DNA of 36,993 nt from the NCBI GenBank assembly GCA_030756895.1, contig JAVBIX010000006.1:1-36993 (forward strand). The letters run 5' to 3'. Positions 7,100 through 36,592 of this stretch are shown here, piece by piece. Numbering within the stretch: position 1 is the first letter of the stretch; every line of letters begins with the position of its first letter. Position numbers and translations under genes: made by a program. Below the pieces are notes generated by a model. The model ran no database searches. It was given only the letters and a program-made list of their open reading frames with translations, and was not told where the DNA came from. This DNA comes from Synechococcus sp. SP2 MAG (GTDB lineage: Bacteria; Cyanobacteriota; Cyanobacteriia; PCC-6307; Cyanobiaceae).

Positions 7100-7960
7100 A
7101 TGGCCATGACCCTTCGTCAAATGTCAACGCCGTATGCCCATTGGGAATACGTCCATCCCCAAAGTGGTGATCGCCTACGCGTGGTGCCCGAACGCGGCGG
7201 CATTGTCACCGAATGGCTCTGCAATGGTCGGGACATCCTCTATTTCGACCAGACGCGTTACGCCGACCCTAAGCAGAGCATTCGCGGTGGGATTCCTGTG
7301 TTGTTCCCGATCTGCGGCAACCTTCCCGGTGACCGCCTTCCTTTAAAGAGTGGTGAGGCCACCCTTAAGCAGCATGGTTTTGCGCGTGGCTTGCCCTGGC
7401 AGCTGGAGCTACTCGACGACCAGAGCGGCGTGCGTTTGTCTCTAACGGAGACCGAAGAGACCTTTGCGGACTATCCGTTCCGCTTCCGGCTGGAGATGGC
7501 GGTGCGTCCTGTGAGTGGTGCGCTGGAGATCACCACCACGATTGCGAATGCCAATGAAGGCGGCGAGTCGATGCCGTTCAGTTTTGGTCTCCATCCCTAC
7601 TTCAATGTGACGGACCTCAGTCGCACCAGCCTTGAAGGCTTGGCACCCCAATGCTTGAACCACCTTGTGATGGCAGAGGCTGAAACCGGCGATCAATTGA
7701 GCCGATTGCCAGAGGGGGTGGACTTTCTCACCCGCCCTGCTGGACCGGTCACCCTGGTGGATGAGGCTGCGGGCACGCGCTTGCAGCTGCAGCATCAAGC
7801 GCCCATGGATCTCACGGTGGTCTGGACCGAGCCTCCTCGCGCGATGGTCTGCCTCGAGCCCTGGACAGGTCCTCGTCAGTCCCTGATTACAGGAGACGGC
7901 AAGCTCGAGCTCGCTCCTGGCGAGAGCCTCCAGCTCAACTGCCGCTATGCGGTGAGTTGA
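7100..7960 (+). CDS. Aldose 1-epimerase family protein (galactose mutarotase-like)
   Basis: This is a 286-residue protein with the fold signature of the aldose-1-epimerase / glucose-6-phosphate 1-epimerase (YeaD) superfamily. Visible are RGGIPVLFPICGNLPGDRLP, KQHGFARGLPWQL with the His of the active site, a second His in FGLHPYFNVTDLS, and VCLEPWTGPRQSLITGDGKL with the Glu that usually acts as base. Such enzymes interconvert sugar anomers in the cytoplasm; the exact hexose or hexose-phosphate is not fixed by sequence. A GGAGG sits 11 bases before ATG 7100, so that start is preferred over ATG 7106. The last 26 bases overlap the 3' end of convergent glcE, and both reading frames are intact across the overlap. 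Confidence 0.9.
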   Translation: MAMTLRQMSTPYAHWEYVHPQSGDRLRVVPERGGIVTEWLCNGRDILYFDQTRYADPKQSIRGGIPVLFPICGNLPGDRLPLKSGEATLKQHGFARGLPWQLELLDDQSGVRLSLTETEETFADYPFRFRLEMAVRPVSGALEITTTIANANEGGESMPFSFGLHPYFNVTDLSRTSLEGLAPQCLNHLVMAEAETGDQLSRLPEGVDFLTRPAGPVTLVDEAAGTRLQLQHQAPMDLTVVWTEPPRAMVCLEPWTGPRQSLITGDGKLELAPGESLQLNCRYAVS

Positions 7961-11917: not shown

Positions 11918-13342
11918 TCAGAAGCGCTCGATAATGGCGTCTGCAAAGCCGCTACAGCTCACGGGATCCACTTTGGGCTCCATGAGTCGGGCGAGGTCAT
12001 AGGTGACCTGCTTGTCTTTGATGGCGGCGCTGAGCCCCTTGGTGATCAGGTCGGCCGCATCCTGCCAGCCGAGGAATTCGAGCATCATCACTCCGCTCAG
12101 GATCACGGAACCGGGGTTGATTCGATCCAATCCTGCGTGCTTGGGGGCGGTGCCGTGGGTGGCCTCGAAGATGGCGGCCGTTTCACCGATGTTGGCTCCA
12201 GGGGCCATGCCCAGGCCTCCCACCATCGCCGCGGCGGCATCGGAGATGTAGTCGCCATTGAGGTTGAGGGTGGCCAGGATCGAATATTCCTGAGGGCGGG
12301 TTTGGATCTGCTGGAAGATGCTGTCGGCGATGCGGTCATCCACCAGCACCATGCTTTTCCATTTGCTGTAGCCGTGGCTTTCGCCAATCGCTGCAAGCAC
12401 CCCCCGTACTTCGGAATCGATCGTCTCTTTTTTCTCGGGCGTCAGGCTGTCGTAGCCGGGCTCAATCATGCGCGCATTGTCCTGGGCGCTGAGCGAGTGA
12501 TCGCGGTCGAGATTGTCGAGAATCCAGCTTTCACGTTCGGTGATGCAAACATCGCGGAATTCAGTGGTGGCAAGCTCATAGCCCCAGTCACGGAAGGCTC
12601 CTTCCGTGAATTTCATGATGTTGCCTTTGTGCACAAGCGTCACGTGACGCTTGTGCCCTTCCAAGCGCAGGGCGTGTTGGATCGCTTTGCGGATGTGTCG
12701 CTGGCTGCCGTGCTTGCTCACTGGCTTGATGCCGATGCCGGATCCTTCAGGGATTTGCCGCTTGCCGAGTTTGCCGTTGGCAGGGATGACCACCTCATTG
12801 AGATACTTGCGCAGCTCTTGGCCGATCGGATCATCCGCTTCCCACTCAATTCCCATATAGATGTCTTCCGTGTTTTCTCGGTACACAATCACGTCCAGAT
12901 CCTGAGGACGTTTGTGCGGGCTGGGCGTGCCTTCGTAGTAGCTGCAGGGCCGGACACAGCAGTAGAGGTCGAAAATTTGTCGCAGGGCGACATTCAGCGA
13001 GCGGATCCCACCACCCACTGGGGTGGTGAGGGGCCCCTTGATCGCCACACCGAAGCTGCGAATCGCTTCCAAGGTGTCTTCAGGAAGGTATTGATAGGTG
13101 CCGTAGAGGTCGCAGGCTTCATCACCGGCATAGACCTTGAACCACTCGATCGTCTTTTTGCCGTTGTACGCCTGAGCCACAGCCGCATCGAGCACCTTCT
13201 GGGTGGCAGGCCAGATGTCCACTCCGGTGCCGTCGCCGCGAATGAAAGGAATGATCGGATCGTTCCCCACCACGGGGTGGCCGTTTTCGAAGCGGATTGG
13301 GGTGCCCTTGAGAGGGGCGGTGAGCTTCTCAAACTGAGCCAT
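11918..13342 (-). CDS. icd: NADP-dependent isocitrate dehydrogenase
   Basis: Icd converts isocitrate to 2-oxoglutarate plus CO2 and NADPH. In cyanobacteria 2-oxoglutarate is the carbon skeleton for GS-GOGAT ammonium assimilation and a nitrogen-status signal. With ATG 13342 (MAQFEKLTAP) the product is 474 residues, the expected size for cyanobacterial Icd. Landmarks are IIPFIRGDGTGVDIWPAT, the substrate loop GGGIRSLNVALRQIFDLY, DVIVYRENTEDIYMGIEW, VHKGNIMKFTEGAFRDWGYE, and the decarboxylating-dehydrogenase signature around NLNGDYISDAAAAMVGGLGM. The frame is open upstream to 13576, but that extension is basic, unlike the family, and would cover the start of the divergent glycosyltransferase. 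Confidence 0.97.
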   Translation of the reverse strand: MAQFEKLTAPLKGTPIRFENGHPVVGNDPIIPFIRGDGTGVDIWPATQKVLDAAVAQAYNGKKTIEWFKVYAGDEACDLYGTYQYLPEDTLEAIRSFGVAIKGPLTTPVGGGIRSLNVALRQIFDLYCCVRPCSYYEGTPSPHKRPQDLDVIVYRENTEDIYMGIEWEADDPIGQELRKYLNEVVIPANGKLGKRQIPEGSGIGIKPVSKHGSQRHIRKAIQHALRLEGHKRHVTLVHKGNIMKFTEGAFRDWGYELATTEFRDVCITERESWILDNLDRDHSLSAQDNARMIEPGYDSLTPEKKETIDSEVRGVLAAIGESHGYSKWKSMVLVDDRIADSIFQQIQTRPQEYSILATLNLNGDYISDAAAAMVGGLGMAPGANIGETAAIFEATHGTAPKHAGLDRINPGSVILSGVMMLEFLGWQDAADLITKGLSAAIKDKQVTYDLARLMEPKVDPVSCSGFADAIIERF

Positions 13343-13436
13343 GGAGGGGTCGCTGCCTGGCGGCATTTTGGATTTGGCGAGCTTATGACTCGGCGGGTGC
13401 TCTCTTAAGTTCCTCTTGATTCTCTCTCCACGATCC

Positions 13437-14387
13437 ATGGTGAAACCTGAAGGTGTCTGGATCGTGGCCGCTTGTTTCAACGAACAGGCCGTGATCACCG
13501 CGTTCATCGAGCGCGTGCTCGCCGTACCAGGTGTGGAGCGATTGGTGTTGATCGACGATGGCTCAAGCGATGACACCGTGTCGCAGATTCGGCTTTGGCA
13601 GGCTCGTCAGGCCCAACTTGGCGCAGCGGCTCCTGTCAGCTTGCTCGAGCTCACCCGTAATTTTGGGAAAGAGGCGGCGATGTTGGCTGGCCTCGATCAC
13701 GTTCGAGGGGAGTGTGCTGCAGCGGTGCTTATCGATTCCGACCTCCAGCATCCTCCTGAACTGATCGAAGCGATGGTGCAGAAATGGCGGGATGGAGCTG
13801 AGGTGGTCACGGCCGTGCGCGATGACAGTGATGAGGAATCACGGTTCAAGGTGGCCAGCGCCCACTGGTTTTACCGCGTGTTTAACAAGGTGGTGGATTC
13901 GATTCAGATCAAGGAGGGAGCGGGTGACTACCGGCTCTTGGATGCACAGGCGCTCGAGGCGGTCACGAGCTTGCGCGAATCAAGCCGCTTTTCCAAAGGA
14001 TTGCTGCCCTGGACGGGTTACCGCAGTGTGGAACTGCCCTATCAGCGGGTGATTCGTAGCGGCGGCCAAACCTCCTGGAGTCCGTTCAAGCTCGTGAGCT
14101 ACGCCTTCGATGGAATCTTTTCCTTCTCCGTGCTGCCCCTCAAGGTGTGGACAGTGCTTGGGGTCCTGATTTCCTTGTTGAGCTTGGTGTACGCCTCCTT
14201 GATTGCGCTGCGTACGGTTCTGATCGGCGTGGATGTTCCTGGTTACGCCTCGATGATGACCGCGGTGCTCTTCCTGGGAGGCATTCAGTTGATCGGAATC
14301 GGTGTGCTCGGGGATTACATCGGTCGGATTTATGTGGAGGCCAAGGATCGCCCTCACTACTTCATCCGAGCCATTCACAACTCCTGA
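13437..14387 (+). CDS. Polyprenyl-phosphate glycosyltransferase, GT2 (GtrB/ArnC/FlmF-like)
   Basis: This is a 316-residue GT2 enzyme of the dolichol-/undecaprenyl-phosphate sugar synthase group. The catalytic N-terminal domain has VAACFNEQAVITAF, LIDDGSSDDT and the metal-binding IDSDLQHPPEL. GAGDYRLLDAQALEAV and SSRFSKGLLPWTGY follow. Two C-terminal membrane helices are near WTVLGVLISLLSLVYASLIA and MTAVLFLGGIQLIGIGVLGD, ending with GRIYVEAKDRPHYF. Such enzymes load one sugar from a nucleotide donor onto polyprenyl phosphate at the cytoplasmic face. ATG 13437 fits better than the TTG at 13416. Its 3' end overlaps by 13 bases the convergent GtrA-YdjC fusion, whose domains could flip and deacetylate the product. 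Confidence 0.93.
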   Translation: MVKPEGVWIVAACFNEQAVITAFIERVLAVPGVERLVLIDDGSSDDTVSQIRLWQARQAQLGAAAPVSLLELTRNFGKEAAMLAGLDHVRGECAAAVLIDSDLQHPPELIEAMVQKWRDGAEVVTAVRDDSDEESRFKVASAHWFYRVFNKVVDSIQIKEGAGDYRLLDAQALEAVTSLRESSRFSKGLLPWTGYRSVELPYQRVIRSGGQTSWSPFKLVSYAFDGIFSFSVLPLKVWTVLGVLISLLSLVYASLIALRTVLIGVDVPGYASMMTAVLFLGGIQLIGIGVLGDYIGRIYVEAKDRPHYFIRAIHNS

Positions 14388-15709
14388 AGCGCTTGCCATT
14401 CGCGTTGTCGCCACGGAGAGGCGGCAAAGGGTTGCGACACAGAAAAGCCTGCATCCGTGAGATTGCGCGCCAGTGGTGCGCCTGGATGGGCGAGCAGGAG
14501 TGGTGGGGTTCGATTCGCTCGAGCCGGAAGGGCTGCAAGGGTTTGGTGGGCTGCTCGTAGCGGTGGGCCTGCCATTTGTCCGGTGAACAGCACACCGGCA
14601 AACCCGCCATTGCTGGCGATACCAAGGCGTTGTTGCTTCCGCTGCGCTAATCGACTGAGAACCTCCAGCACGGCCCATTTGAGTAAGCCGGCCTGGAGGA
14701 TCGCATCCCACCACCAATGCAAAGCGAGACCGGTGGGAAGTGGCTCGGTTGTGCTGCGCATCCAGGTGATCTTTTGCTTTCCTGAAACCTGCAACAGGCA
14801 GTCATGCACGATCGGAACAAGGTGCACGTGCTGATGGCCGTCAACGTGAAGCGGAGCGTCTGCGCCGCAGAGTTGCCGGAAGCGAGCAATTTGCGCCTGT
14901 ATCTCTTCGTGGAGTTGCCGGGTAACGCGCCGTCGCCGCGGGTGCATGGCGGGTAACAGCGAGAGCGAAAGCCAGACCCCAAACGACAGCTTGAGATGGC
15001 CGTTTTGGTTGATGAGATCGGGGACAGCGGAGGCGACGGCGGCGCAAGGCCCCTCGGTTAAGCAAAGGTGGAGGCAAAGCTCAAGATCTGGCTGCTCGGC
15101 TTGGAGTGCTTTCCAGGCCACTACCCCCTCTGAGACCGCAGGGCCCTGCACCAGCAAGCTGGCTCCGTCCAACTTGCCGATGCGAGCGAGTTGAAGGATG
15201 GCGTTGTTGGTGGCTTGGCTGAGGCCTAGATCATCCGCATGCATCCTTGGTCGTTGCTGTTGGTTGCGTTGCTTTGCGCTGAACCGGGCGGCCTTCGACC
15301 AGATCAAGGCATTGAGAACCGTGGGAGTGAACACCAAAACCCCCAGTCGGATCGCACTGGGGACTGCGTCTGGGAGGACGAGTGGCAGCAATCCGCAGAC
15401 CGAAAGATTGACGACGTATTGAAGAACAAGCCAGCGCCGCGCAAACCGTTGTCCTCCGGTCTCCGGCCGGAAGGTGTAGCGCGCATGACCGAGATAACCG
15501 GCGATCGAGGCCGCCAGAAAGGCCAAGGGATTCGCGGCCCAGAGCGGCATCAGCAAACCCAAGGCAAGCAAGACGCCTGCATGAACGATCGCGGCACCAA
15601 TGCCGACGAGTCCATAAAGACTGATCCGAGTGATGGGAGTTGCCAGGGATCTGTTGCTGGTATGGATGAACCGTAACGGCAGTTGGCGCAAGCTCTGCTG
15701 ACCCTTCAC
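14375..15709 (-). CDS. Fusion: N-terminal GtrA-type membrane domain + C-terminal YdjC/ChbG deacetylase
   Basis: From GTG 15709 the product has 444 residues. Residues about 15-140 form a GtrA-like four-helix membrane domain (ISLYGLVGIGAAIVHAGVLL; LAASIAGYLGHARYTFRPET; LNALIWSKAARF), the type proposed to flip polyprenyl-linked sugars. From about residue 155 comes an intact YdjC/ChbG carbohydrate deacetylase. It has H157-A-D159-D160 in MHADDLGLSQATNNAIL, ELCLHLCLTEGP, and the His-rich HVDGHQHVHLVP that completes the metal site. A longer frame to ATG 15796 exists but would overlap the divergent gene at 15726. The order suggests deacetylation of a lipid-linked N-acetyl sugar made by the adjacent GT2 enzyme. 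The fusion is continuous, with no internal stop. Confidence 0.87.
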   Translation of the reverse strand: MKGQQSLRQLPLRFIHTSNRSLATPITRISLYGLVGIGAAIVHAGVLLALGLLMPLWAANPLAFLAASIAGYLGHARYTFRPETGGQRFARRWLVLQYVVNLSVCGLLPLVLPDAVPSAIRLGVLVFTPTVLNALIWSKAARFSAKQRNQQQRPRMHADDLGLSQATNNAILQLARIGKLDGASLLVQGPAVSEGVVAWKALQAEQPDLELCLHLCLTEGPCAAVASAVPDLINQNGHLKLSFGVWLSLSLLPAMHPRRRRVTRQLHEEIQAQIARFRQLCGADAPLHVDGHQHVHLVPIVHDCLLQVSGKQKITWMRSTTEPLPTGLALHWWWDAILQAGLLKWAVLEVLSRLAQRKQQRLGIASNGGFAGVLFTGQMAGPPLRAAHQTLAALPARANRTPPLLLAHPGAPLARNLTDAGFSVSQPFAASPWRQREWQALQEL

Positions 15710-15725: not shown

Positions 15726-16187
15726 ATGAACCCTGTGAATGCGGCGGCGGCGGTCCATAGCGTGGCCTTGGCCCAGGCTCTAGCCACCAGCGTCACGCTG
15801 GTGCGACGGCAGTTCTCTGCGGCTCAGCCGAATTTGAGTCCTTGGCGTGATGACCCTTCCACCCGCCATTGGGACGAGGCCGCAACCTTGGATTTCGCCT
15901 TCGATTTCCCAGGCTGGAGCCCGCGGCTGCAATGTCGGAGTCTGTTGCTGCAGTTACGGCTCAAGCCGGAGGAGGGACGGACGGACTCGTCTTGTCCTTC
16001 CCTCCTTGGCGTGGTGATGCGCGGCATGACCTTTGAAGGCGAACGCTGGCGTTTGGCAACGGTGGGCGATTGGTTGCCGGCTGGCCCCTATCTACCCCAA
16101 CCGGATCAGGTGGAGCAGCTGCAATTGATTTGTCGAGAGTTGTTTGAAGTGTTCGAAAAGGGTGTGCCCAATCGCACCAGTTCTTAA
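15726..16187 (+). CDS. Conserved hypothetical protein, unknown function
   Basis: ATG 15726 gives 153 residues. The first 30 residues are Ala-rich and helical (VNAAAAVHSVALAQALATSV). The remainder looks like a compact soluble domain with LDFAFDFPGWSPRLQCRSLL, VVMRGMTFEGERWRLATVGD and a final helix QLQLICRELFEVFEKG. There is no signal peptide, membrane segment or recognised catalytic motif. It lies 16 bases from the preferred start of the divergent fusion gene and 73 bases ahead of ho1 on the same strand. I do not recognise the family. The N-terminal start is uncertain because the opposite-strand frame is also open across 15726-15796. Confidence 0.6.
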   Translation: MNPVNAAAAVHSVALAQALATSVTLVRRQFSAAQPNLSPWRDDPSTRHWDEAATLDFAFDFPGWSPRLQCRSLLLQLRLKPEEGRTDSSCPSLLGVVMRGMTFEGERWRLATVGDWLPAGPYLPQPDQVEQLQLICRELFEVFEKGVPNRTSS

Positions 16188-27408: not shown

Positions 27409-28695
27409 TCAGCGTAGATAAAGCACCATGAACCATCTGAGCTGGATCGCCCAGATCAGCAGCGGGATAAAGCCGAGCATCCCCGGACCGAATATCGCCG
27501 AGCGTTTCCCTGGAAGCACAACTGTTAGAGCACCGATCCAGCCGAGCACAATTGCAGGCATGAAGTGAATGCCGTAGACCCAGCCGTGTTGGGCCAGCGA
27601 CTGGGTCAGGAGTGGGATGAACAACCAAGTTCCGCCTGCCGCCATTACAAGCAGGATTTGACTCTCGATCGGCTTCAGGCGTGAAAGAACGATGAAGAAG
27701 AGAATGATGCCGAGAATCCATATTGCGCAGTGCTCGATATAGATCTGGCTGTCCTTGAGAAAGCCAGGAATGCCTCCAGAGCGTTGGTCATAGATGAAAT
27801 CGAGGGCATCGAAGATGCCGTCATGCGCTCGGAGACTACCTGTCATGCCCATCCTGTCCATCAGCTGGCTTCCGTAAAGCTTGTTAGCTAGAAGGGCTTT
27901 TGCGATTAGCCGCTGGACCCAGTACAAGAAGATTCCGGCAAGCGAGCCAGGGATTAGTGCCCTTAGTGCATTTTTCAGGCGATGTTCGCTCTTGAATAGT
28001 TGCAGTAAAAAAAGGGTGATCAAATTGGTAACGCCGAACACTGGATAGATCCACGAGGTGAAGAACCCAAGCAGCAGGCTCAGCTTCGGTATCTGTTGCT
28101 GGTCTGATCTTCGAAGCCAGATCCCCAGGCTCAACACGGTGGCCAGCCAGAAGCTGACCCCCAAATAGTCGGGCTCATCCACCATGCAGAATCGCAGCAT
28201 CGACTCATTGGTGATCGTGATCGCGTAGGTGCTGATCACCACTATTTCGTTGACAATTTCTCGCCGCATTCCGGTTGCGAAAGTCTTGAAACAAATCCGA
28301 GCAAGACCTGCCAGCATCAGCCCGTTAATGCTGACTAAAATTAAAGAAAAAGTGAGCTTGAACGCTGGGTATCCACTACTGCCAACGAACTTATATGCAA
28401 CCCAGAGGTGAAGCAGATGTAAGGGAGTTTTGCTCTGATACAGCAGTTTCGGCTCTACATCAGCCGCGAGGTATCCCTGCCCCCAGCTGAACATTCCAGC
28501 CATCGACCAGAATCCGTGGTTCTCCCAGGCTTGAACGGCATTGAGACCTTCTGTGCCGAAGTCGAACAAATGGTCAGCAAGCCCTTGGTCAATCAACCGC
28601 CAATAAGTAAATGCACTTAGTAGTGGGATTGTGATAATCGAAAGCCAGGGCAGATCCCTGAATCTCCCGCTTTCAGGCAGCGTGAGAAGGCGCAT
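27409..28695 (-). CDS. Multispanning membrane protein, GT-C-like, unnamed family
   Basis: The product from ATG 28695 has 428 residues and about 10 hydrophobic helices. The first periplasmic loop contains WENHGFWSMAGMFSWGQGYL and then LLYQSKTPLHLLHLWVAYKF. Later loops hold FCMVDEPDYLG, KLYGSQLMDRMGMTGSL and LAQHGWVYGIHFMPAIVLGW. The large loop after TM1 with acidic residues, many helices and a lumenal tail suggest a GT-C polyprenyl-phosphate-sugar-dependent glycosyltransferase, but no diagnostic DxD is certain. The same landmarks recur in weaker form in the protein at 32635-33984. It is probably at the periplasmic face in surface-glycan modification. Its minus orientation separates it from the AT-rich block. 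Confidence 0.72.
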   Translation of the reverse strand: MRLLTLPESGRFRDLPWLSIITIPLLSAFTYWRLIDQGLADHLFDFGTEGLNAVQAWENHGFWSMAGMFSWGQGYLAADVEPKLLYQSKTPLHLLHLWVAYKFVGSSGYPAFKLTFSLILVSINGLMLAGLARICFKTFATGMRREIVNEIVVISTYAITITNESMLRFCMVDEPDYLGVSFWLATVLSLGIWLRRSDQQQIPKLSLLLGFFTSWIYPVFGVTNLITLFLLQLFKSEHRLKNALRALIPGSLAGIFLYWVQRLIAKALLANKLYGSQLMDRMGMTGSLRAHDGIFDALDFIYDQRSGGIPGFLKDSQIYIEHCAIWILGIILFFIVLSRLKPIESQILLVMAAGGTWLFIPLLTQSLAQHGWVYGIHFMPAIVLGWIGALTVVLPGKRSAIFGPGMLGFIPLLIWAIQLRWFMVLYLR

Positions 28696-30178: not shown

Positions 30179-31033
<855 letters not shown>

Positions 31034-31088: not shown

Positions 31089-31805
31089 ATGCCTAGCGTG
31101 CAGGCGTTGCCGATCTTTATTGGATACGACCCTCGCGAGCGGGCGGCGACCAATGTTTTGATCGACAGCCTCTATCAGCACAGTTCGGTTCCTCTCGCCA
31201 TCACTCCCTTGGTGACACCGCAATTGGAGGGGCAAGGCCTGTTTTGGCGTGAGCGAGATCCGAAGCAGAGCACGGCTTTTTCGTTTACGCGCTTTTTGGT
31301 GCCCTATTTGATGGGCTACAAGGGTTGGGCGCTGTTTATGGATTGCGACATGCTCTGCCGCGCTGATATCAAAGCGTTGTGGGATTTGCGCGATGATCGG
31401 TATGGAGCGATGTGCGTGCAGCACGAGCATGTACCGGGTGAAACTGTGAAGTTTCTTGGAGAAGTCCAGAGCCCCTACCCCAAGAAAAATTGGAGTTCCT
31501 TGATGCTGCTCAACTGCAGTCGTTGCAACAAGCTCACGCCGGATTACGTCAATACCGCTTCAGGCCTTGAACTGCACCGCTTCCACTGGTTGGAGGGTGA
31601 CCATGAAATCGGTGGTGTTGATGCAGGTTGGAATCACCTTGTGGATGTCCAGGCGGCCCCAACAACTCCAGCCCAGGATTGCGGTCCACGTCTGCTGCAT
31701 TGGACGCTGGGAGGGCCTTGGTTTCGCGAGCAGCGCACGATGGGGGGACGTTTGGCGGCGGAATGGTTCAGTGCTCGTGATGACGCTATGAAGCTGTGGG
31801 ATTAA
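31089..31805 (+). CDS. GT8-like glycosyltransferase between kdsA and kdsB
   Basis: From ATG 31089 the product has 238 residues; a TTG at 31086 precedes it. It starts with a strand and helix typical of GT-A enzymes (LPIFIGYDPRERAATNVLID) and has the metal-binding DxD within GWALFMDCDMLCRADIKALW. A C-terminal LLHWTLGGPWF supplies the His expected in GT8-like enzymes. There are no membrane segments. It lies 55 bases after kdsA and its stop overlaps the region just upstream of kdsB, so it is likely in one operon with Kdo synthesis. The acceptor may be a Kdo-containing core or capsule, but that is inferred from position. Confidence 0.82.
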   Translation: MPSVQALPIFIGYDPRERAATNVLIDSLYQHSSVPLAITPLVTPQLEGQGLFWRERDPKQSTAFSFTRFLVPYLMGYKGWALFMDCDMLCRADIKALWDLRDDRYGAMCVQHEHVPGETVKFLGEVQSPYPKKNWSSLMLLNCSRCNKLTPDYVNTASGLELHRFHWLEGDHEIGGVDAGWNHLVDVQAAPTTPAQDCGPRLLHWTLGGPWFREQRTMGGRLAAEWFSARDDAMKLWD

Positions 31806-31810
31806 GTGAC

Positions 31811-32638
31811 ATGGTGATCAAACACAATGTTGTGGCTGTGCCGGCTCGGCTTCAGTCGTCACGTCTCCCTAATAAGGTTTTGGCGGATATTGGCGGGATG
31901 CCGATGATCCAAAGGGTGCTTGAGCGTTGCCGAGAGGCGCAAGGCATCGACGTTGTGGTGCTATGCACAGATAGTTCGGAACTTCAAGAGCTGGCGAAGT
32001 CCTGGGATTTCCCAGTGTTGATCACAGACGAAAATTGCAGTTCTGGTAGCGAGCGGATTGCCTCTGTTGCTGATGCTTTGGTTGGTCTGGCCTGGGAGGA
32101 GGATCCAAGCTGCTGGGATCCTGCATTGCGATCCAAGCGCTTATCTCATACGGCGGTAATCAACGTGCAGGGAGATCAACCGTTTCTGGATCCTTTGATC
32201 GTGACCAAAATGGTGCGCGAGTTTCAGTTGTGCGAATCTGCACCGGCCGTGGTGACGCCGGTGTATCGCCTCTCGGCAGACACGATCCACAATCCGGCCG
32301 TGGTGAAAACACTATTGGCTTCTGATGGTCGAGCCTTGTATTTCTCGCGTTCAGCGATTCCCCATGTGAGGGATGTTGATCCATCCGAGTGGCATAGACA
32401 TGCCACTTTTTGGGGGCATGTCGGGATGTACGGCTTTCGGGGAGATGTTCTAGCGGGTTGGGATCAGCTGCCTCACTCACCTCTAGAGGATCTGGAGAAG
32501 CTGGAGCAGTTGCGATTGATTGAAGCCGGATACACAGTCGCGACTTTCCAGGTGGAGGGCACGTCCCTGTCGGTTGACACGGCCGACCAGCTGGAACAAG
32601 CCCGGTTGATGGCTGCCGCAGATTTGGGTGACCCATGA
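31811..32638 (+). CDS. kdsB: CMP-Kdo synthetase (3-deoxy-manno-octulosonate cytidylyltransferase)
   Basis: KdsB activates Kdo with CTP to CMP-Kdo, the donor for Kdo transferases. From ATG 31811 the protein is 275 residues. A GTG at 31796 would overlap the preceding stop and is less likely. Motifs are VPARLQSSRLPNKVLADIGG (nucleotide-binding loop), ENCSSGSERIASV, VINVQGDQPFLDPLIV with the metal-binding Asp, ALYFSRSAIPHVRD, and GHVGMYGFRGDVLAGW. The length exceeds E. coli KdsB (248) by an insert around GLAWEEDPSCWDPALRSKRL. The next gene begins within its stop codon (ATGA). Confidence 0.95.
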   Translation: MVIKHNVVAVPARLQSSRLPNKVLADIGGMPMIQRVLERCREAQGIDVVVLCTDSSELQELAKSWDFPVLITDENCSSGSERIASVADALVGLAWEEDPSCWDPALRSKRLSHTAVINVQGDQPFLDPLIVTKMVREFQLCESAPAVVTPVYRLSADTIHNPAVVKTLLASDGRALYFSRSAIPHVRDVDPSEWHRHATFWGHVGMYGFRGDVLAGWDQLPHSPLEDLEKLEQLRLIEAGYTVATFQVEGTSLSVDTADQLEQARLMAAADLGDP

Positions 32639-35045: not shown

Positions 35046-35609
35046 TTAGTCGTTGCGATCGCGCCAGCCTTTTTGGCTGATATCTCCCCATGCTCGGCGG
35101 CTTTTAAGGAGTTCCTCAGCGGCTTCGCGCACAGCGCCGTGCCCGCCGTTTCGGTTCAGGACCCAGTCCGCCTGACGGCGTACGGCGCTGCAGGCATCAG
35201 CAGGTGTGATCAGCAGGGCGATCTGATCTCGAACTGCAAGATCATTCAAGTCATCGCCAATGAAGGCGGTGTTATTTCGATCGATGCCGAGCTGTTTCTG
35301 TAGTTGTGCCAGTGCTCTGGGTTTGTCCTTGATCCCAACTAGACAGTGCTCAATGCCCAGCTGTTCTGCTCTGATCTCAGTGGCACCGCCCTGGCCTCCG
35401 CTGAGAAAAGCCAGAGTCATCCCTGTCTGTTGTAGTAGCCGGATGCCGAGACCGTCGCGCACATCAAAGCGTTTCTGTAGGCGACCTTCTTGGTCAAACC
35501 ACAACCCTCCATCTGTGAGCACACCATCTACGTCAAGTACCAACAGCTTGACGGCAGCAAGCCTGGGCCGAAGAAAATGGCACCGCCATCTCTGTGTGAG
35601 CGCTCTCAT
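35046..35609 (-). CDS. kdsC: Kdo-8-phosphate phosphatase (HAD family)
   Basis: KdsC hydrolyses Kdo-8-phosphate to free Kdo, between KdsA and KdsB. It has 187 residues and lacks a large cap, as usual for the tetrameric C0-type HAD enzymes. Motif I is LLVLDVDGVLTDGGLWFD with both catalytic Asp. Motif II is LAFLSGGQG, the motif III Lys lies in VGIKDKPRAL, and motif IV is FIGDDLNDLAV. The C-terminus NRNGGHGAVREAAEELLKS is family-typical. The start at ATG 35609 overlaps the stop of kdsD by 4 bases (ATGA), so kdsD-kdsC form a coupled minus-strand operon convergent with kdsB's operon. Confidence 0.96.
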   Translation of the reverse strand: MRALTQRWRCHFLRPRLAAVKLLVLDVDGVLTDGGLWFDQEGRLQKRFDVRDGLGIRLLQQTGMTLAFLSGGQGGATEIRAEQLGIEHCLVGIKDKPRALAQLQKQLGIDRNNTAFIGDDLNDLAVRDQIALLITPADACSAVRRQADWVLNRNGGHGAVREAAEELLKSRRAWGDISQKGWRDRND

Positions 35610-36592
35610 GTAAGTCCCGCCTGCACAAGGTCATGCAGGCGAAGCAAGCCTTCAATCTCACCTTGTGTATTCACCACTGGCAGCACAGAAATTGGTTTAC
35701 GCCGGTTGTTTTCCATTGCCTTGATCGCCTCAACTGCAAGGGTATTTGCGGCGATGGTGATTGGATCAGCAGTCATTAGGTCGCTAGCGGTGAGGCTCGA
35801 CCAGTTATTGGCTGGTTGATCGCGAAGCGCTCGTCGAAGATCGCCATCAGTGATGAGCCCCAGCAGATGTCCGGGCTGTTTGGGATCTTCAACCCAGGCG
35901 CTGCCGATGGCGCCGCGGGTCAGTGTGCCGATAACCGTATCTAGGGGCGTATTTGGTGCCAGGGGACTTAGCTCACGGGCGGGAAGCATCAGGTCTGCGG
36001 CTGTCATGGTGAGCTGTTTGCCCAGAGATCCGGCCGGATGGTTGAGGGCAAAGTCTGCGGGTGAGATTCCCCTTCGCTCCATCCACACTGCCGCTAATGC
36101 ATCCCCGATCGCCATCGCAACAGCCGTGCTGGCAGTGGGAGCAAGGTTTAAGGGGCATACCTCTCGATCCACACTGGCGTCCAGCACCACATCGCTTCCT
36201 CGCGCTAAGGATGATTCGGCTCGACCGACCAGCGCAATTCGGGCTGTGCCTCGGCGCGTGAGGTGGGGCAAGACCTCCAAGAGCTCGGCGGTTTCACCGC
36301 TGTTGGAGAGCAGTAGACAAACGTCGTCGGGGGCTACCACCCCTAGATCGCCGTGTAAGGCGTCAAGGGGGTTGAGGTAGAGCGCCATCAAGCCGATGGA
36401 GGAAAAGGTGGCTGCGATCTTGCGCGCCACAATGCCGCTCTTACCCACGCCGGTTATCACCAGCTTGGCTTTGCGGTCTGCGCAGCGTTCCAATAATTCA
36501 AGCGCTCCTTCTACCTCCTCACTGCTAAGGCGTGCAGCAGCAGCGGCGATTGCCGCTGCCTCTTCCTGCAAGCAGCGTGTAAGTGAGGACAA
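35606..36592 (-). CDS. kdsD: Arabinose-5-phosphate isomerase (SIS + two CBS domains)
   Basis: This isomerase makes D-arabinose-5-phosphate from ribulose-5-phosphate, the first step of the Kdo pathway. The 328 residues match KdsD/KpsF. The SIS domain has AKLVITGVGKSGIVARKIAA, LNPLDALHGDLGVV, LLSNSGETAELLEVLPHL, and ASVDREVCPLNLAPTASTAV with the catalytic-region His and Glu. NHPAGSLGKQL follows. Two CBS domains start near DLMLPARELSPLAPNTPL and DLMTADPITIAANTLAVEAI. The KdsD and KpsF paralogues cannot be told apart by sequence here; linkage to kdsC supports KdsD. It is followed by kdsC with overlapping start and stop codons. Confidence 0.95.
   Translation of the reverse strand: MSSLTRCLQEEAAAIAAAAARLSSEEVEGALELLERCADRKAKLVITGVGKSGIVARKIAATFSSIGLMALYLNPLDALHGDLGVVAPDDVCLLLSNSGETAELLEVLPHLTRRGTARIALVGRAESSLARGSDVVLDASVDREVCPLNLAPTASTAVAMAIGDALAAVWMERRGISPADFALNHPAGSLGKQLTMTAADLMLPARELSPLAPNTPLDTVIGTLTRGAIGSAWVEDPKQPGHLLGLITDGDLRRALRDQPANNWSSLTASDLMTADPITIAANTLAVEAIKAMENNRRKPISVLPVVNTQGEIEGLLRLHDLVQAGLT

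Follow-up and report, generated by a model that had tools for sequence, protein, structure and literature searches.

A GtrA membrane domain fused to a YdjC deacetylase domain is paired with a GtrB-type glycosyltransferase in many picocyanobacteria

The 36,993-nucleotide stretch of Synechococcus sp. SP2 analyzed here (contig JAVBIX010000006.1 of assembly GCA_030756895.1; hereafter the window) carries two convergent genes whose 3' ends overlap. Positions 13437–14387 on the plus strand encode a 316-amino-acid (aa) family 2 glycosyltransferase (GT2) of the GtrB/ArnC kind, a predicted polyprenyl-phosphate glycosyltransferase according to Pfam and its solved relatives. Opposite to it, positions 14375–15709 on the minus strand encode a GtrA membrane domain fused to a YdjC deacetylase domain, recognized by Pfam, by sequence motifs and in an AlphaFold2 model. 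The stop codons end at 14387 (plus strand) and 14375 (minus strand), resulting in a tail-to-tail overlap of 13 bp (14375–14387). The length of the fusion, 444 aa, was counted from the GTG at 15709; the same frame is open up to a GTG at 15796.

An earlier interpretation of these letters without database searches (the sequence-only reading) had proposed that a single frame carries a GtrA-like four-helix domain followed by an intact YdjC domain, and that its end overlaps a GT2 gene of the GtrB/ArnC kind. Profile searches bore out this architecture. GtrA_DPMS_TM (PF04138) matched residues 32–111 of the fusion with 37.8 bits against a curated cut-off of 26.1, and YdjC (PF04794) matched residues 156–442 with 139.5 bits against 29.7. 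The GtrA-like domain was assigned to residues 25–149 (15263–15637, minus strand) and the YdjC/ChbG domain to residues 150–444 (14378–15262, minus strand). In the AlphaFold2 model (mean pLDDT 90.9, input alignment of 25 fusions), four membrane-type helices comprise residues 25–51, 56–84, 91–111 and 118–149, and an alpha/beta domain starts at residue 155. The deacetylase part superimposed on EF3048 (2i5i; VIA Z 23.5, root-mean-square deviation (rmsd) 2.4, 236 aligned residues), ChbG (7vi8; Z 22.9, rmsd 2.5, 231 aligned) and CmCBDA (Z 20.7, rmsd 3.2, 238 aligned), with Z 20.6–23.5, rmsd 2.4–3.2 and 231–239 aligned residues over all VIA matches to these three proteins of the YdjC fold; the list was filled by matches to this domain and hardly probed the GtrA part. 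The top six Foldseek rows were the same proteins. Among the NCBIfam equivalogs, HpnK (TIGR03473) was the best model for the fusion at 100.8 bits, below its cut-off of 232.6, and chitin disaccharide deacetylase (PRK02134) reached 69.9 bits, below its cut-off of 227. By these scores, the fusion belongs to the GtrA and YdjC families and lies outside both equivalogs.

The motifs HADD, CLHLCLTEGP and HVDGHQHVH, which had been quoted as signs of an intact active site, are all present in the fusion frame. In Klebsiella ChbG, whose substrate is diacetylchitobiose, D11, H61 and H125 bind the metal, and the putative general acid and base residues are D10 and H206 (PMC9402603; papers are cited here by PubMed Central number and from excerpts). 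ChbG residues D10, D11, H61 and H125 align with D159, D160, H214 and H292 of the fusion, and H206 corresponds to H408, a match placed through the HP motif only and not through the alignment. None of these five residues varies among the 25 fusions compared, so that the active site appears intact and deacetylase activity is predicted. Proteins of the GtrA family have four membrane helices and both ends in the cytosol. The GtrA domain of the fusion fits this topology, with four helices in the model and an N-in/C-in orientation predicted from positive charges: the mean number of lysines plus arginines in the 25 sequences was 2.00 in the N-terminal segment, 0.32 in loop 1, 4.44 in loop 2, 0.32 in loop 3 and 4.96 at the start of the YdjC side. 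By the positive-inside rule, these counts indicate that the N-terminus and loop 2 face the cytosol, as does the YdjC side. The deacetylase domain is thus predicted, as the sequence-only reading had supposed, to lie on the cytosolic side, where polyprenyl-phosphate sugars are made.

The GT2 matched Glycos_transf_2 (Pfam) with 82.4 bits. Its best solved relative was Synechocystis GtrB (sll0501; 275 bits over residues 12–311 of 316), followed by ArnC with 130 bits. The GtrB catalytic residues D94, D96, R122, D157 and R200, taken from PMC4728340, align with D100, D102, R128, D164 and R207 of the GT2 (5/5 kept; the numbering offset of the PDB chain was derived by hand). Across 31 aligned GT2s, R128 is conserved in 30, with Q in one, and the other four residues are invariant. 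The GT2 scored 136.7 bits with the ArnC equivalog (PRK10714; cut-off 529) and 246.2 bits with the PgfS equivalog (NF047588; cut-off 500), and on these sequence scores it is a member of the GtrB-type family outside both equivalogs.

The pairing of the two genes recurs widely. YdjC was found in 59 of 299 genomes of the order, and the fusion was counted in 53 of them; 41 of these are two-domain frames read from the DNA, nine are single open-frame matches over both domains, and three (G097, G051 and G140) were counted from frame length alone. A GT2 scoring above 370 bits was present in 53 of the 299 genomes. Fusion and close GT2 occurred together in 52 genomes, only one of them in two (the fusion in G119, the GT2 in G029) and neither in 245. 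GT2 and GtrA are therefore encoded together, as in three-component glycosylation systems, and the possibility raised with the original proposal that the fusion is an artefact of one genome is ruled out by this survey. In 30 loci that were read, the fusion was present in 24, and a convergent GT2, in one case a distant one, adjoined it in all 24.

A second collection, which partly overlaps the first, was obtained by scanning with two peptide patterns and retaining the best 80 of 158 relatives, of which 78 loci were kept. Both domains lay in one frame in 48 of the 78 loci, all from records titled as cyanobacteria; given the two patterns and the restriction to the best 80 of 158 relatives, other phyla could still hold fusions. 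The carriers included Synechococcus, Prochlorococcus, Cyanobium and Vulcanococcus, among them the strains WH7803 and RCC307. The GT2 was convergent on the opposite strand in 46 of the 48 fusion loci, the exceptions being L130, which reaches a contig end, and L083, in which the GT2 is cut short. The remaining kept loci comprised two cyanobacterial ones without the fusion (L121, frame-broken, and L128, at a contig edge) and 28 proteobacterial ones with a stand-alone YdjC. We conclude that fusion and GT2 form a two-gene unit in many picocyanobacteria. The two genes can be set apart, by 547 bp in L112 and by 126 bp in L122, which has frame breaks. Extra genes lie between GT2 and fusion in L061 (9516–11158) and L062 (9860–10624); a methyltransferase domain was recognized in one L061 insert, and the gene in L062 resembles the second L061 gene and had no Pfam match.

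In a tree of YdjC domains, 30 fused domains were set apart by a moderately supported branch (76/82), which is consistent with a single origin of the fusion. Among the matches listed for 386 genomes of the phylum, YdjC frames from outside the family were about 185–365 aa long, with one of 403 aa (G535). Only one of 50,697 phage records matched, weakly and with the YdjC part only. No description of the fusion was found among the matches listed in the excerpted open-licence literature of PubMed Central.

The pair lies beside icd in 21 of the 30 loci, including the window, mostly in the order icd, GT2, fusion, small gene, ho1. The listed icd frame of the window (11918–13576) is extended upstream across the beginning of the GT2 gene; an icd of 474 aa is common among relatives, and the extra N-terminal part is therefore probably a start-site artefact. 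Six same-genus genomes of the sample have neither the GT2 ortholog nor a YdjC gene, and in all six this site still carries icd, the small gene and ho1. Aligned to the window, and in its coordinates, their sequences break at 13588 and 15681 (G004), at 13744 and 15603 with a further short match at 15462–15500 (G020), at 13444 and 15632 (G094), at 13396 and 15663 with 213 bp of non-aligning sequence between (G018), at 13412 and 15704 with 34 bp between (G076), and at 13420 and 15669 with 112 bp between (G121). Remnants correspond to GT2 residues 1–49 in G004, to GT2 residues 2–79 and a piece of the N-terminal part of the fusion in G020, and to fusion residues 1–25 in G094. The junctions differ among genomes, which points to several independent losses; fewer events with later erosion are possible. 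Partial losses were seen as well. In G029 (L059, 9772–10170), an in-frame deletion has removed the deacetylase domain only, leaving a GtrA part (49 bits) and the last fusion residues beside an intact GT2, and in L121 (Prochlorococcus sp. AG-412-I05) GtrA and GT2 are intact and YdjC is frame-broken. Judging from these two cases, GtrA seems to be of use even when the deacetylase is missing.

The same components also occur as separate genes. A GtrB-like GT2 adjoined the stand-alone ydjC in 24 of the 28 proteobacterial loci (L133–L160, mostly Rhizobiales), on the same strand in 22 and on the opposite strand in two. Sixteen of the 28 also contained a gene of the GtrA cluster, of which one tested member scored 64.5 bits in Pfam; four of these 16 loci additionally matched a profile built from the GtrA domain of the fusions. 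Because a YdjC motif served to select the loci, these frequencies do not apply generally. Among picocyanobacteria, ten loci have a more distant GT2 and no fusion; a separate gtrA abuts the GT2 in four of them (L042 and L046–L048) and lies farther away in L044. In L133, the GT2–ydjC pair is located near a gene that we take to be hisG-like.

A pathway of this kind would require a last transferase, most likely of the GT-C type. The sequence-only reading had named the proteins at 27409 and 32635 for this role. They are hydrophobic, with 6 and 8 membrane-like stretches, respectively, and no Pfam match at E ≤ 0.001. As conserved final transferases they were rejected, because each was found (E ≤ 1e-10) in only one of 30 genomes, the window's own. 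In O-antigen systems, variable transferases accompany conserved GtrA and GtrB, and by analogy a strain-specific role of the two proteins may be considered. Other candidates appeared at the nine of 30 loci, from five genera, in which the pair lies away from icd. A gene of the DUF2079 or PMT family, or its cluster partner, was nearby in eight of these nine: DUF2079 in L052–L054, L060, L070 and L071, a PMT gene in L072 and a cluster partner of PMT in L073. The ninth, L069, has a DUF6311 protein, presumably related to GT-C enzymes. Of the 53 fusion genomes, 50 had DUF2079, compared with 61 of the 246 fusion-free genomes of the order; one of these matches was below the family cut-off. DUF2079 and PMT genes near the pair were seen only in other genera; the window's genome has, on another contig (C60; L171, 473–8467), a row of five such genes, four for DUF2079 proteins and one for a PMT_2 protein, beside a gene that looks like psbD.

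A model of one of these DUF2079 proteins (mean pLDDT 79.5) is GT-C-like. Pmt4 was its first VIA match (Z 19.9), ArnT aligned with Z 19.2 and rmsd 5.0 over 416 residues, and all 50 listed structural matches are apparently GT-C-fold proteins. Foldseek likewise placed GT-C proteins first, with only four at E ≤ 0.001 and ArnT at 1.6e-3. The DUF2079 profile gave chance matches only against the sequences of solved structures, and no description of DUF2079 was found in the open-licence literature of PubMed Central. DUF2079 proteins, one of which gave this GT-C-like model, fit the role of final transferase better than the proteins at 27409 and 32635.

Several known systems share parts of this arrangement. 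The Arn pathway consists of ArnC, the deformylase ArnD, the small multidrug resistance (SMR)-type ArnE/F and ArnT. The picocyanobacterial unit resembles it in the logic of transfer, N-deacylation, flipping and GT-C transfer and in the likeness of the DUF2079 model to ArnT, and it differs by its YdjC and GtrA domains in place of a deformylase and SMR-type proteins and by a GT2 far below the ArnC cut-off. In the FlmF2–NaxD–FlmK system of Francisella, a lipid-linked N-acetylhexosamine (HexNAc) made by a GT2 is deacetylated before transfer by NaxD, a separate protein of the YdjC family. The unit would share with it a GT2 and a YdjC-family deacetylase in corresponding roles; unlike NaxD, the deacetylase of the window is fused to GtrA. 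ChbG, CmCBDA and EF3048 have the same YdjC fold and metal-site residues but are stand-alone proteins, and ChbG acts on diacetylchitobiose. The GtrA–GtrB–Gtr(type) systems of the Shigella O-antigen and the GtcA systems of Listeria and Bacillus likewise combine a GtrB-like GT2 with a GtrA protein, and a GT-C enzyme is expected to act last (PMC11127046, PMC7389260); in the window, by contrast, GtrA carries a fused deacetylase, the genes are convergent and no GT-C gene is recognized at the locus. We regard the unit as a variant of the three-component glycosylation systems in which GtrA is fused to a deacetylase. The names gtrA and gtrB are also used for a picocyanobacterial glutamate TRAP (tripartite ATP-independent periplasmic) transporter, reported without gtrC in marine strains in the excerpt of PMC11851481, and a collision of these names with those of the glycosylation genes is possible.

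We consider it rather probable that the pair acts as a compact unit for a lipid-linked amino sugar. The GT2 would load polyprenyl phosphate at the cytosolic face with a HexNAc taken from a UDP-sugar, and the cytosolic YdjC domain, in view of its intact active site and predicted topology, would take off the acetyl group to give polyprenyl-phosphate hexosamine. The fused GtrA domain would then carry this lipid to the periplasmic leaflet, where a GT-C transferase, most likely a DUF2079 protein from another locus, would pass the sugar to a surface glycan, the lipopolysaccharide (LPS) core or lipid A. The domains, the active sites, the linkage to the GT2 and the predicted cytosolic placement that the sequence-only reading had combined into such a pathway all held up, its choice of final transferases did not, and its parallel with pathways of GT2, deacetylase, flippase and GT-C enzyme is reinforced by certain Proteobacteria in which gtrA, GT2 and ydjC are neighboring but separate genes.

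A number of observations weigh against this pathway. Its main weak point is the sugar donor of the GT2: GtrB, the closest characterized relative, uses UDP-glucose and produces undecaprenyl-phosphate glucose (PMC4728340), a lipid without an acetyl group to remove. The deacetylase is not indispensable, since G029 keeps the GT2 and the GtrA part without it. The fusion of G119 has only a distant GT2 beside it (130 bits), and in L083 the fusion is intact and the GT2 is reduced to about its last 50 residues. The latter locus holds the C-terminal end of the GT2 (7326–7477) and a second copy at the contig edge (9868–9951), possibly an assembly chimera; judging by its title, L083 is probably a single-cell assembly. 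The count of 52 in 299 genomes ignores the kinship of the genomes, and Fisher values for the co-occurrence consequently overstate the case. No GT-C gene was recognized by Pfam at the window locus, the DUF2079 carriers include the 61 fusion-free genomes, and within the genus DUF2079 does not discriminate (18/18 with the fusion, 5/6 without).

The closest competing explanation, to which we give a minor though real share, is that the GtrA domain is a mere membrane anchor or a GT2 partner as in DPMS, which keeps the deacetylase at the GT2 product while another protein flips. In Pfam, GtrA and the membrane domain of DPMS indeed belong to one family, and direct evidence of flipping by GtrA-type proteins is described as lacking in the excerpt of PMC11127046. 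GtrA nevertheless seems to be more than an anchor for a deacetylase, because a separate gtrA abuts the related GT2 in four of the ten loci mentioned above and G029 retains the GtrA part next to its GT2 without the deacetylase. GtcA, another member of this family, is needed for the glycosylation of lipoteichoic acid in Listeria and Bacillus (PMC7389260). It is improbable that a different membrane glycolipid, such as the hopanoid-GlcNAc supposed for HpnK or GlcNAc of the LPS core, is the substrate of the deacetylase and that the link to the GT2 reflects no more than a common membrane site. HpnK is the best NCBIfam model, but its cut-off is missed, 297 of 299 genomes have either GT2 and fusion together or neither of them, and the GtrB-like GT2 also adjoins the separate ydjC in most of the proteobacterial loci.

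Far less probable still is a membrane-tethered chitobiose deacetylase for chitin use. The ChbG fold of the YdjC domain would suit it, and chitinase is encoded by 38% of the marine sub-cluster 5.1 strains (PMC11851481). However, the cut-off for chitin disaccharide deacetylase is missed, and such a function would leave the GtrA domain and the GT2 without a reason. Of the 53 fusion genomes, 23 had a match to glycoside hydrolase family 18 (GH18), as did three of seven others searched, and the window's genome had none; the chitin-use explanation was dropped, as the fusion showed no association with GH18. The probability that the fusion is a misassembly or chance frame is negligible: no supporting point was found, the two-domain frame recurs in dozens of genomes, several of them assembled as one contig, and its active-site residues are invariant.

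The surface-glycan cluster of the window contains a set of genes of the type for 3-deoxy-D-manno-octulosonic acid (Kdo), at 30188–31033, 31796–32638 and 35046–36592, with a DAHP_synth_1 family member and a Kdo cytidylyltransferase above its cut-off. Two frames of this set presumably encode KdsC and KdsD, judging by their motifs. This set contrasts with the LPS of the marine Synechococcus strains WH8102 and CC9311, which in the excerpt of PMC4515613 is described as free of heptose, Kdo and lipid A phosphate and as containing glucose, some glucosamine and galacturonic acid. More tentatively than the lipid-linked amino-sugar pathway itself, and leaning toward doubt, we propose that the fusion is a processing flippase that couples deacetylation and translocation in one polypeptide, so that only the sugar with a free amine is exported, and that it would provide amino-sugar decorations in picocyanobacteria, whose lipid A is described as phosphate-free in the two strains named. 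Loss of this route is tolerated and seemingly repeated, and perhaps, as a guess, selection by phages or grazers stands behind it.

If the lipid-linked amino-sugar pathway is correct, it would assign a pathway step to genes that occur in many marine Synechococcus, in some Prochlorococcus and in relatives of these, and would predict free amino sugars on the surface lipids or glycans of these cyanobacteria. The neighboring separate gtrA, GT2 and ydjC genes would extend this prediction past the cyanobacteria to some Proteobacteria. The fusion would also offer a natural single-chain protein in which flipping by GtrA and its coupling to deacetylation could be tested.

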